A DNA stretch of 64,000 nucleotides from Pyxidicoccus trucidator (GTDB taxonomy: Bacteria > Myxococcota > Myxococcia > Myxococcales > Myxococcaceae), in NCBI RefSeq assembly GCF_010894435.1, contig NZ_JAAIXZ010000019.1, positions 1-64,000 of the forward strand, read 5' to 3'. The notes beneath the pieces are model-generated. The model was not told the DNA's origin and searched no databases. It was given only the letters and a program-made list of their open reading frames with translations. Of this stretch, positions 1 to 2,401 are shown one piece after another (the stretch's first letter is position 1; every line of letters starts with the position of its first letter). The translations under genes were made by a program, and so were the position numbers.

Positions 1-124
1 GCTGATTCATATCGGTGCTGCCGGCTGCGCTTCTCAGCGCGACCTGGCTGGCACCGTCAAAGAATTGACTGCGGTTTCCGCAATCTGTCTTCTACTTGGG
101 CTTGCTATTTGGTTTTCAAAGACC
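1..124 (-). promoter_or_regulatory. rRNA operon leader with boxA-like antitermination site
   Basis: The minus strand at 124-111 reads GGTCTTTGAAAACC, closely followed by CAAATAGCAAG. This resembles the boxA region that precedes rRNA genes in many bacteria and recruits Nus antitermination factors. Small hairpins follow (TGCGG-ttt-CCGCA near 70-82; GCGC-ttctca-GCGC near 27-40), as expected of a processed leader. A further TAGAAG lies at 94-89 with only a poor -35 at 19 bases. The rRNA gene would begin left of the window. Confidence 0.65.
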
Positions 125-203
125 GAGCCGCTTGTACCACTCGCGACTTCTTGTTACCGTTGCTGCGCTTGCTGCCTGCCGTTTCCAACCGGCGGGGCTG
201 CAT

Positions 204-232
204 CTTTTATTCGAGTCCGCATCCGCTGTCAA
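204..232 (-). promoter_or_regulatory. rRNA-type promoter, unit 8 (closest well-formed unit)
   Basis: TTGACA (232-227), 17-base spacer, TAAAAG (209-204). It has the best overall match to consensus and lies nearest the leader. Confidence 0.7.
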
Positions 233-314
233 CTTCGACTTTTGCGTCCTCGGGGCCTCTCGAAGTCCTCAGCGCCGCCCAGTGGCTTCCGCTGTTTCTT
301 TCGAGGGGGAGCGG

Positions 315-344
315 CTTCTACTTCCTTGCCGCCATCCCTGTCAA
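315..344 (-). promoter_or_regulatory. rRNA-type promoter, unit 7
   Basis: TTGACA (344-339), 18-base spacer, TAGAAG (320-315). Confidence 0.7.
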
Positions 345-418
345 CCGCTGCTTCGTTGACTTTCCCTCGCCGAGTCGCCCGTCCTGCTGCCCGGGCTTTT
401 TCTTCGTCGGGGGCGCGG

Positions 419-448
419 CTTCTACTTCGTCGCCGCGTTTCCTGTCAA
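419..448 (-). promoter_or_regulatory. rRNA-type promoter, unit 6
   Basis: TTGACA (448-443, a perfect -35), 18-base spacer, TAGAAG (424-419). The spacer is two bases longer than in units 2-5. Confidence 0.7.
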
Positions 449-543
449 CTCGCTTCGTTGACCGCCGTATTCCGTTTGTCGGTGATGCACCACGGCCGAA
501 GTATCTTCCGCACCAGTGCGCGGGCTTCGTCGTGGGGTCGCGG

Positions 544-571
544 CTTCTACCACCACCGCGTTTCGAGTCAA
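544..571 (-). promoter_or_regulatory. rRNA-type promoter, unit 5
   Basis: TTGACT (571-566), 16-base spacer, TAGAAG (549-544). Confidence 0.7.
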
Positions 572-661
572 CCGCTTCGGCCGACTCTTTCTTCCGTCCT
601 GCTCTCCCCGGATCCACCTGGCTGCTGCTGCCCGCCAGCGGGTCCGTCGAGTGGGGCGCGG

Positions 662-689
662 CTTCTACCACCGCCGCGTCGCGAGTCAA
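662..689 (-). promoter_or_regulatory. rRNA-type promoter, unit 4
   Basis: TTGACT (689-684), 16-base spacer, TAGAAG (667-662). It is closely similar to units 2 and 5. Confidence 0.7.
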
Positions 690-758
690 CCGCTTCGGTC
701 GACTCCTTTTATTCTCTCTGTCAGCTTCCCGAGCTGCTCCGCCTCGGGTGAGGCGCGG

Positions 759-786
759 CTTCTACCACCGCCGCTCCGTGGATCAA
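759..786 (-). promoter_or_regulatory. rRNA-type promoter, unit 3
   Basis: TTGATC (786-781), 16-base spacer, TAGAAG (764-759). The -35 is one base off the others. Confidence 0.65.
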
Positions 787-867
787 CCTATTTGGTCGGA
801 TCCTTCGTACTTCTTCTGTCCGCCCCGGCGAGTCGCTGAGATCAGCCGCTCGGTCGAGGGGGCGCGG

Positions 868-895
868 CTTCTACCACCGCCGCGTCCAGGGTCAA
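868..895 (-). promoter_or_regulatory. rRNA-type promoter, unit 2
   Basis: TTGACC (895-890), 16-base spacer, TAGAAG (873-868), followed by CCGCG as in its sister units. Confidence 0.7.
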
Positions 896-968
896 CAAGC
901 TTCGCCGACCTTTTTCTTCCCCCGTTCGCACCCGGTAACGGACACCGAGGCGCCGAGCAGAGGTTCAG

Positions 969-997
969 TTTCTAACGCGTCGTCACAAGGCCGTCAA
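969..997 (-). promoter_or_regulatory. rRNA-type promoter, unit 1 (most upstream)
   Basis: On the minus strand TTGACG (997-992), a 17-base spacer, then TAGAAA (974-969). This is a near-consensus housekeeping-sigma arrangement and the furthest unit from the presumed rRNA gene. Confidence 0.7.
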
Positions 998-1142
998 ATC
1001 ATCATGATCCGAAGTCCAGGTGACACCTTCGCATTGAGGGATTTAATCACCCCTTCATGGGTGTGAACCCCCTGCCCCGGTTCGGCGCTTCCTCCCGTGA
1101 AATCCCCGGTTTGCAGCCTGGAGAGCAACCGGACGAGCTGCT

Positions 1143-1871
1143 TCAGGGCTCGAGTTCCGCTCGGGGACGGGGGAGCTCGGGATGATCCACCCCGCTGGGA
1201 GCCGCTGGCCGCCAGGTGGTCCCGAAGAGCCAGTCCGAGAGCGGGACGGTGATGTTGAAGTTGTACCGCTGCATCTTCGAGGGGTCGTGGTGCGTCTGGT
1301 GGTGACGCCGCAGCCTCGCCATCAGCGGGAGCCGGGCCACCGGGTGCTCCGGCGGCAGGTGGTGGCAGAAGTGGAGCCACTCGTAGGTGAGGTAGTAGCC
1401 CACGGCCGAGGCCGCGAAGAGCCAGCCCACGTTTGGTGAGACGAGCGCGAAGCTCAGCGCCGCCAGCGGGGTGGCGATGGCGCCCAGGAAGAAGAGCAGC
1501 AGCACGGGCGGGAAGAGGACCATCTTCACGTCGCGGGCCGACTCGTAGGCGAGCGCCTCGTGGGTGAAGAAGCGGTGGTGCTGCTCCGTGTGCCTCTGGA
1601 AGAGCAGCCTCAGTCCTCGCCGACGATGGTGCATGGGCCCCCGGTGGCCGAGGAACTCCACGACGTTCCCCAGCAGGAAGACCGCGGGCACCGTCAGCCA
1701 CTCCAGGGGGCGGACGGCCTCCAGGCGGGAGAGCGAGAAGCCGATGGCCGCCAGCGAACCCACGCTGGTGAAGGCGAAGTGGGCCCGCCCCGAGTAGCGC
1801 GCTCCTACATACTTTCGCCGGTACTCCTCACGGAAGGTGGCGACCCGCTCGGGAATGGTGTGTGTGGCCAT
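1143..1871 (-). CDS. Fatty acid hydroxylase / sterol desaturase family protein
   Basis: This is a 242-residue integral membrane protein of the di-iron fatty acid hydroxylase superfamily, which hydroxylates or desaturates lipid chains in the inner membrane. The histidine clusters that hold the iron pair are visible: HRGPMHH near 76-82, HTEQHH near 94-99, HFCHH near 167-171 and HHQTHH near 190-195. Hydrophobic segments lie near 35-70 and 118-165. The start is supported by a GGGGGAG ribosome site seven bases upstream. It begins 17 bases after the deformylase stop on the same strand, so the two probably form an operon. The substrate cannot be read from sequence; carotenoid or sphingolipid hydroxylation are alternatives within the family. 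Confidence 0.85.
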   Translation of the reverse strand: MATHTIPERVATFREEYRRKYVGARYSGRAHFAFTSVGSLAAIGFSLSRLEAVRPLEWLTVPAVFLLGNVVEFLGHRGPMHHRRRGLRLLFQRHTEQHHRFFTHEALAYESARDVKMVLFPPVLLLFFLGAIATPLAALSFALVSPNVGWLFAASAVGYYLTYEWLHFCHHLPPEHPVARLPLMARLRRHHQTHHDPSKMQRYNFNITVPLSDWLFGTTWRPAAPSGVDHPELPRPRAELEP

Positions 1872-1888
1872 GGCTCCCCCCGTTCGCT

Positions 1889-2401
1889 TCAGTCCTGGCC
1901 CTTCTGCCGGGCCTTCGCCTTCTGCAGCTTCTGCATCCGCCCGAGGATGAGGGTGCGCTTGAGGCTGGACAGGTGGTCCACGAAGACGTGCCCGTCCAGG
2001 TGGTCGATTTCATGCTGCAGCACGTGCGCGAGCCGGCCCTCCGCCTCCATCTCGTGCCACTCGCCCGTCCGGTCCTGGTAGCGCACCTTCACCCGGTGGA
2101 AGCGCGGGCACTTCTCCCACTCGCGGGGGACGGACAGGCAGCCCTCCTCCAGCGTCACGGCCTCCTTCTTCTCCAACACCTGCGGATTGATGATTTCGAA
2201 GGACGTGCCGTCCTCGCGGCCCACCAGCGCCATGCGCAGCGGCTCGCCGACCTGGTTGGCGGCGATGCCGATGCCCTCTGCTTCCTTCATCGAATCGGCC
2301 ATCTCCTCCAGCAGCTTCTGGAGCGGGGGGCCGAAGTCCGTCACGGGCTTCGTGGGCGAGGTGAGTACCTTATGGGGCCAGATGACGATGTCGCGAGCCA
2401 T
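1889..2401 (-). CDS. def: Peptide deformylase
   Basis: Removes the N-formyl group from nascent proteins at the ribosome exit using a bound metal. All three family motifs are intact in the 170 residues: GIGIAANQ (43-50), EGCLS (86-90) and HEIDH (130-134), giving metal ligands C88, H130, H134 and catalytic E131. The chosen ATG gives the usual family length; an open frame extends further upstream, but that part has no family resemblance. No strong ribosome site precedes the ATG. It is the first gene of a probable two-gene unit with the hydroxylase. No methionyl-tRNA formyltransferase gene adjoins it here, although the two are often neighbours in other bacteria. Confidence 0.93.
   Translation of the reverse strand: MARDIVIWPHKVLTSPTKPVTDFGPPLQKLLEEMADSMKEAEGIGIAANQVGEPLRMALVGREDGTSFEIINPQVLEKKEAVTLEEGCLSVPREWEKCPRFHRVKVRYQDRTGEWHEMEAEGRLAHVLQHEIDHLDGHVFVDHLSSLKRTLILGRMQKLQKAKARQKGQD

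Follow-up and report, generated by a model that had tools for sequence, protein, structure and literature searches.

What does the repetitive stretch at the very edge of this contig control, and how many promoters does it contain? The window (G000:C19:1-64000, the whole 64,000-nucleotide stretch that was analysed) belongs to the draft genome of a soil bacterium of the Myxococcaceae, 12.67 Mb in 136 contigs, and it starts with base 1 at a contig edge. Its first 127 bases match the final 127 of contig C46 (C46:5316-5442) exactly; this contig carries 5S, 23S and 16S rRNA genes on the minus strand, with the 16S gene at C46:3720-5257. The first 127 bases of contigs C20 and C36 are also identical to this stretch, and both contigs diverge from the window at base 128. 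We treated the stretch common to C46 (16S-23S-5S), C20 and C36 (window 1-127, minus strand, exact identity) as an assembly overlap. Joining the contigs across it would place the 16S start (C46:5257) 59 bases to the left of window base 1, and the array directly upstream of a 16S-23S-5S operon and pointing the same way. An earlier, sequence-only reading of this DNA had staked its case on an rRNA gene to the left of base 1, and the overlap with C46 indeed brings in 16S, 23S and 5S. Because three contigs overlap the 16S end of C46, we infer a collapsed repeat, in which at least three rRNA operons have one 16S-23S-5S contig in common, with a separate upstream array for each. At its 5S end C46 overlaps only two contigs (C4 and C41), versus three at the 16S end, so one junction on the 5S side is absent or different. 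The repetitive stretch is very probably the control region of one of these at least three operons, made up of tandem sigma-A-type promoters, six strong and two divergent, all facing the 16S gene.

We number the units P1 to P8 towards the 16S gene. All lie on the minus strand, and the eight pairs of TTGAC-like and TARAAR hexamers that had been claimed are borne out between window positions 997 and 204. The six strong units score 31-45 bits: P2 (868-895, TTGACC-16-TAGAAG, 38.8 bits), P3 (759-786, TTGATC-16-TAGAAG, 31.3 bits), P4 (662-689, TTGACT-16-TAGAAG, 44.5 bits), P5 (544-571, TTGACT-16-TAGAAG, 41.0 bits), P6 (419-448, TTGACA-18-TAGAAG, 39.3 bits) and P7 (315-344, TTGACA-18-TAGAAG, 38.5 bits). 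P2, P4, P5, P6 and P7 contain the strict core described below. The first unit, P1 (969-997, TTGACG-17-TAGAAA, 5.4 bits), is divergent and without a GC-rich discriminator; P8 (204-232, TTGACA-17-TAAAAG, 10.6 bits), the unit nearest the 16S gene, is divergent as well. The scores were computed with a position matrix whose training set was the 234 distinct strict cores taken from this array and related ones, and they express likeness to the family. Start-to-start distances from P1 to P8 are 102, 109, 97, 118, 123, 104 and 112 bases, in agreement with the irregular period of 96-124 bases described before.

The simple motif TTGAY-N15-19-TARAAR, the only one used in the shuffle test and independent of the trained matrix, occurs eight times on the minus strand of window 1-1100 and not at all on its plus strand; the remaining 62.9 kb of the window contain no match on either strand. 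In 2000 dinucleotide shuffles of the array the motif was found 0.004 times on average and once at most. A ninth, decayed copy had also been proposed, and this part did not hold: with spacers of 15-19 bp, no other position on the minus strand of window 1-1300 scored 4 bits or more. Tandem Repeats Finder found no simple tandem repeat in window 1-2000. In a Pyxidicoccus fallax array (L107), neighbouring units have just 44-67% identity over 117 ungapped bases, which argues against a very recent duplication in that array.

The two divergent units have counterparts elsewhere. The P8 position is occupied by a unit in the aligned relatives too. A P1-type promoter is found in 14 loci (three copies of the window's own and other duplicates included), in several species (L011, L021, L022, L025, L031, L033, L117, L213 and L214). 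In the window (997-962) P1 is of a different type from the other units, and its relatives are mostly TTGACG..TTAGTAACTGAACC-like and lack the GC-rich discriminator. It lies upstream of the strong units in the loci inspected, and its regulation may be different.

The composition of the units points to the sigma-A (sigma-70) class. A TTGACA-like -35 element and a spacer of 15-19 bp are present, and the spacers of the 234 distinct strict cores are bimodal, with 16 bp in 129, 18 bp in 97, 17 bp in seven and 14 bp in one. In P2-P7 the TAGAAG -10 element is directly followed on its 3' side by CCGC and then by more C-rich bases, giving a CCGCGCC-like discriminator. The sequence features of stringently controlled promoters, a GC-rich discriminator and a non-optimal spacer, are both found here, with P1 and P8 lacking both; spacers of 16 or 18 bp occur in 226 of the 234 strict cores, which had been chosen to have CCGC. 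At the rrn P1 promoters of E. coli a GC-rich discriminator and a spacer length other than 17 bp (a suboptimal 16 bp) go with short-lived open complexes and are tied to stringent and growth-rate control, and the window units resemble this type, as it is generally known from E. coli, in spacer and discriminator. The rrn operons of E. coli have two promoters each, with TATAAT as the -10 element, and we know of no hairpin modules of the kind described below in them.

A TATAAT-like -10 element with A2 and T6 is absent; the units have TAGAAG, TAAAAG or TAGAAA instead. The missing last T weighs against our reading, as do the low scores of P1 and P8 and the arrays of three units in relatives. A scan of window 1-1150 with the E. 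coli consensus, which may not suit myxobacteria, returned no promoters because it demands this last T. The TATAAT criterion itself may be unsuitable here, since the Myxococcus xanthus unit that fits the promoter P4rrnD also has TAGAAG.

According to the published passages on P4rrnD, its -35 element matches the sigma-A consensus and its spacer is 18 bp long, sigma-A RNA polymerase gives run-off transcripts from it, and CdnL is enriched there in vivo as judged by ChIP and stabilises its open complex (PMC4182748). The rRNA promoters of M. xanthus are thus like the window units in family, in sigma-A, in the consensus -35 and in the 18-bp spacer. The M. xanthus array (L093) has TTGACA-18-TAGAAG as its 16S-proximal unit, which by its sequence fits P4rrnD (-35 and spacer as published), and the units and hairpin segments of this array are orthologous to those of the window array. 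Going by its name, P4 would be one of about four promoters, versus eight here, and the passages on P4rrnD contain no mention of hairpin modules (PMC4182748). A plasmid in which 'tandem rRNA promoters' express lacI provided them for GFP expression in M. xanthus, in a passage that leaves their source organism unstated (PMC5562445). The P4 name and this plasmid use together suggest earlier knowledge of tandem rRNA promoters in M. xanthus. Perez-Marin 2004 is said to be the primary description of the rrnD promoters, and Iniesta 2012 reportedly that of the expression plasmids.

The conservation of complete promoter cores bears on the view that the array is mainly a leader RNA element, consisting of antitermination or processing repeats in which the promoter-like hexamers are incidental. 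The minus-strand leader of 960 nt folds with -412.6 kcal/mol, better than its shuffles (z -5.2, 20 shuffles), and part of the segments covary, both in favour of such an element. A -35 element, however, would not be needed in it, and the -35 and -10 hexamers at their 16- or 18-bp spacing are among the best-kept parts of the array; moreover, P4rrnD is a tested sigma-A promoter by the published account (PMC4182748). We regard this view as very unlikely and keep to the reading as tandem promoters.

The strict core, TTGAC-N16-22-TAGAAGCCGC, occurs 13 times in the 12.67-Mb genome: five times in C19, three times in C20 and five times in C36. All 13 copies fall in the three rRNA arrays, and a reversed-pattern control gave none. 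With such a restriction, neither a dispersed repeat nor a promoter type in general use in this genome is likely, and we rejected a mobile repeat, there being no dispersed copies. That the array is a mobile or selfish repeat, or an artefact of assembly, is barely conceivable: base 1 is a contig edge at a repeated rRNA operon, as an artefact would have it, but the core is confined to rRNA arrays genome-wide and such arrays recur in independently assembled relatives, among them G007 and G011 (one contig each) and G020 (two contigs). Within the genus, 26 of 27 genomes have a match to the array; family-wide, 75 of 96 genomes contain the strict core. Some genera have lone scattered hits of the strict core, which look accidental, as single hits are obtained with the reversed control too. 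A search of the window with the Rfam 15 covariance models gave no matches at or above the gathering score.

The number of units differs between operons and between species, as a comparison across Myxococcaceae rRNA operons, suggested along with the initial reading, makes clear. Counting units with at least 9 bits, the window array has seven (P1, with 5.4 bits, is the eighth), the array on C36 five and that on C20 four; degenerate further candidates are one at the 16S end of C36 and one at the far end of C20. Seventy distinct arrays have the leader in view, and of these one has two scored units, 11 have three, 27 have four, 16 have five, nine have six and six have seven. The single two-unit array (L132) is interrupted by a contig edge; in general, these counts omit units below 9 bits and are too low for arrays cut by a contig or locus edge (L104, L132) or by masking. 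The per-array listing left out L001-L007, duplicates of the window's and the sister contigs, and for the count of 70 as well as for the -35 pairing tests below eight loci were excluded (Anaeromyxobacter, unrelated, MAG), with 354 of 363 units kept. The multiplicity itself stands with eight units here, but it is less exceptional than had been claimed, three to seven scored units being usual in the family.

Among the matches listed, in which the named relatives are a sample, M. xanthus AM003 (L093) has three scored units, Corallococcus four to seven (L104, with three, is truncated) and Pyxidicoccus fallax up to six (L107). A single genome, that of Myxococcus sp. CA023, has arrays of six, three, four and four units (L096, L119, L129, L142). 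The gaps between units are position-specific in the window's genus and in Corallococcus: the last is mostly 111-119 bases, the previous one mostly 93-110 and the third-last mostly 119-131. As side observations, contig C20 has a candidate extra promoter (TTGACA-17-TAGATG; L009 713-685, minus strand) upstream of its array, where the next upstream gene is guanylate kinase-like by eye. A record titled Comamonas sp. KCTC 72670 (BNCN01000006.1, L077) contains a Myxococcus-type array that is marked as duplicated and matches L023 (from a genome of the genus) in its unit pattern, so its organism label looks wrong.

It had further been claimed that the promoter core is conserved while the filler between the units varies. 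We compared 20 pairs of arrays, ten of which have equal unit counts; the core mask is defined by the motif itself, which biases the comparison towards the core. Core identity exceeds filler identity in eight of the ten equal-count pairs (core/filler for L010/L037 0.90/0.78, L013/L014 0.79/0.67, L018/L027 0.95/0.82, L016/L208 0.93/0.84, L023/L021 0.92/0.87, L015/L036 0.91/0.81, L018/L028 0.92/0.74 and L179/L182 0.95/0.85). In the other two the values are equal (L010/L201 0.80/0.80; L013/L101 1.00/1.00, copies of one array). The ten unequal-count pairs, partly out of register, favour the core in eight cases and are equal in two (L016/L032, L126/L052). The first half of the claim is upheld by these figures, but the filler is not simply free: as described below, two inter-promoter segments keep hairpins with compensatory changes.

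The same comparison speaks to the question whether the upstream units work at all. Only the promoters nearest the 16S gene might do so, with the upstream copies being relics of tandem duplication that are kept by recency or by gene conversion between operons. Arrays of three scored units do exist, P1 is weak on the matrix, and the sister operons keep fewer units; conversion is plausible because the operons of one genome have sequence in common. Relics would nevertheless hardly behave as the strong upstream units do, which hold full cores between species while the filler drifts, nor would P1-type promoters be expected to recur in several species, or the P5 segment to keep compensatory changes in Myxococcus and Corallococcus loci. 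We judge it improbable that the upstream units are relics, and prefer to see the array as a run of promoters that may all work.

Two segments downstream of strong units form hairpins with the loop CACTGG, which is present in 120 of 285 distinct segments. One hairpin is located just 3' of P5 (490-535, minus strand) and the other just 3' of P7 (259-305, minus strand); both are recognised by compensatory changes and by the swap test. The P5 hairpin would fall in the first-transcribed region of the P5 transcript, given a start site placed from the sequence. The alignment of the P5 segment comprises 49 of 71 segments, from the genera g1 and g6; three P7-type segments, L113 and 18 segments from g3 and g7, whose inner part differs, were left out. 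Four of the ten pairs are changed on both sides with pairing kept, compared to 0.5 in shuffles (0 of 500 reach this value), and 99.2% of the cells pair versus 97.5% after shuffling and 32-48% in slid controls.

For the P7 hairpin 51 of 52 segments were aligned (L172, which ran past the locus, was left out). Two pairs are each changed on both sides in 11 of 51 rows (A-U to G-C and C-G to U-A), and all of them are still paired. Each double change is probably one event, since the changed rows are all Corallococcus-type. Cells changed on both sides number 23 versus 5.3 in shuffles (0 of 500), whereas pairs changed on both sides (3 versus 2.4 shuffled, 205 of 500) and pair types (10 versus 12.3) show no excess in this alignment.

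In the swap test the 5' half of a segment is joined to the 3' half of another sequence. P5-type segments (n=69) gave -24.67 matched and -21.33 swapped (sd 0.29), and P7-type segments (n=46) -22.51 and -18.43 (sd 0.43). The segments after P6 (n=65) show no covariation in this test (-9.31 matched, -9.80 swapped), and the other segments (n=133) show little (-12.03 versus -11.54, sd 0.18). The permutation sd ignores the relatedness of the sequences, so all these covariation values are strong hints and not probabilities. With masked-N and identical segments excluded, the folds of single segments are only slightly more stable than those of shuffles (mean z -1.25; reverse strand -0.82), and the case for the hairpins therefore rests on covariation and not on stability. 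A stem-length test on the same selection agrees, although the effect is small (4.40 versus 4.12, highest of 200 shuffles 4.21).

An inverted repeat of another kind, hairpin A, holds the -35 element of the strong units in one arm. On the minus strand it is found at 890-910 for P2, 780-803 for P3, 683-705 for P4, 565-587 for P5, 444-462 for P6 and 340-360 for P7. The complement of the -35 is often present upstream: GAGTC accompanies TTGACTC in 54 of 112 units (23 are without a match), GGTC accompanies TTGACC in 15 of 21 and GGATC accompanies TTGATC in 11 of 21. Over 354 units the hairpin A region folds with -8.90 when matched and -7.38 (sd 0.10) with swapped flanks; nine of the ten -35 classes shown agree, and TTGACGG (nine units) behaves in the opposite way. 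Duplex energies are -7.75 matched versus -6.94 (sd 0.08), and -6.39 versus -5.70 (sd 0.19) for 84 non-redundant units. At two control positions there was no matched advantage, the values being slightly reversed (-5.68 versus -5.82; -3.01 versus -3.09). The stem of hairpin A is broken in the P7 units of Corallococcus, and within the P7 alignment no pair of hairpin A has both sides changed. The GCGGC..GCCGC arms that flank the -10 element covary slightly (-12.13 versus -11.72).

Covariation of this kind can have a cause other than selection on RNA. Template switching at quasi-palindromes can create matched changes in DNA, and the arms of a hairpin would then covary without any function. For the covariation alone this is a serious rival: the arms are short inverted repeats, the two double changes at P7 are at clade level, and the signal is confined to some of the segments. 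It fits less well with the conserved loop and the nearly invariant pairs, or with stems at orthologous positions over many species and the two control positions without matched advantage. On balance we think it unlikely that template switching accounts for the hairpins, and favour structures kept in the transcript.

Based on the arrangement of the units and on the hairpins we propose the following picture. A strong unit is a module of ~100-125 bp with a TTGAC or TTGAT -35 element, a 16- or 18-bp spacer, a TAGAAG -10 element and a GC-rich discriminator; after at least two units (P5 and P7) a conserved fold follows on the 3' side, and the -35 lies in an arm of a further inverted repeat. Each unit would load RNA polymerase through a short-lived, CdnL-helped open complex and be growth-responsive as rRNA promoters are. 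Polymerases from upstream units would read through the downstream ones, and such readthrough would explain the RNA-like covariation in some inter-promoter segments. With few rRNA operons in the genome, the units would raise its capacity for initiation, and their number would shift by gain and loss of modules. Our preferred guess for the hairpins of the long leader is that they guard the dense untranslated transcript from R-loops, backtracking and early termination before boxA. We infer from these features that all eight units may fire, that they may be under growth-rate control and additive, and that the hairpins may play such a role. The unit number itself may stand for dosage or for graded growth-rate control, the two meanings suggested at first. 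As a tentative generalisation, which we hold to be doubtful, Myxococcaceae may use a countable module of sigma-A promoter plus initially transcribed hairpin, with about three to eight copies per operon; the number would tune ribosome synthesis in place of operon number, and the covarying hairpins would form a structured leader, so that closely spaced polymerases could cross as many as seven downstream promoters while avoiding R-loops and premature termination.

Tandem rRNA promoters are known from other lineages. The rrnA operon of Mycobacterium has tandem sigma-70-type promoters before the rRNA genes, in a number that depends on the species; as far as the published description allows the comparison, it has up to five (M. 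chelonae) versus eight here, and it belongs to another phylum (PMC10218544). The rRNA operon of Halobacterium cutirubrum is described as having five promoters that are active at differing strength, at least one of them growth-rate regulated; its promoter machinery is archaeal, so that the likeness would be convergent, and five again compares with eight (PMC4983044). Closer at hand, the rRNA leaders of Anaeromyxobacter (L057, L060, L148) have three to four promoter-like units upstream of a boxA-like string, but with 17-bp spacers in eight of 11 units, and by eye no GCGGC/GCCGC or GTC/GAC inverted repeats stand out in them. The highest count of tandem rRNA promoters that we found in print, in the passages cited, is five, which the eight units here exceed. 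The literature searched, which covered few subscription journals and not the primary papers on M. xanthus, yielded neither an eight-promoter rRNA array nor a promoter-hairpin module. What looks new is the number of units, how it differs from operon to operon and from species to species, and the matching hairpins in some of the repeats.

The capacity for rRNA synthesis is usually discussed as the copy number of rRNA operons. A promoter number that varies within a genome and between close species offers a natural series for rRNA output, lag time and growth-rate range, here in slow, social predators, and the hairpin segments raise the question of how polymerases get past several strong promoters in succession. 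Should firing be limited to the last promoters, no more than an evolutionary curiosity would be left of the finding.

The array runs into a leader that had been called boxA-like, and the string is indeed present (GGTCTTTGAAAACC, 111-124, minus strand); it is a putative boxA. TCTTTGAAAACC is found in relatives as well as at window 122-111; TCTTTGAAAAC, however, served as the anchor of the alignment, and conservation at this position is therefore by construction. Between boxA and the 16S gene lies a hairpin with a terminator-like score (67-85, minus strand; GATTGCGGAAACCGCAGTC, that is GATTGCGG-AAA-CCGCAGTC followed by AATTCTTTGA), which is well kept in the leader alignment and is possibly an attenuator or part of an antitermination site. 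A plus-strand reading frame over the array (1-975, 324 aa) looks accidental. Just upstream of the array, the minus strand encodes what is by eye a fatty-acid-hydroxylase-type membrane protein (window 1143-1871) and, at about 1889-2400, a peptide deformylase by eye, both facing the rRNA operon.
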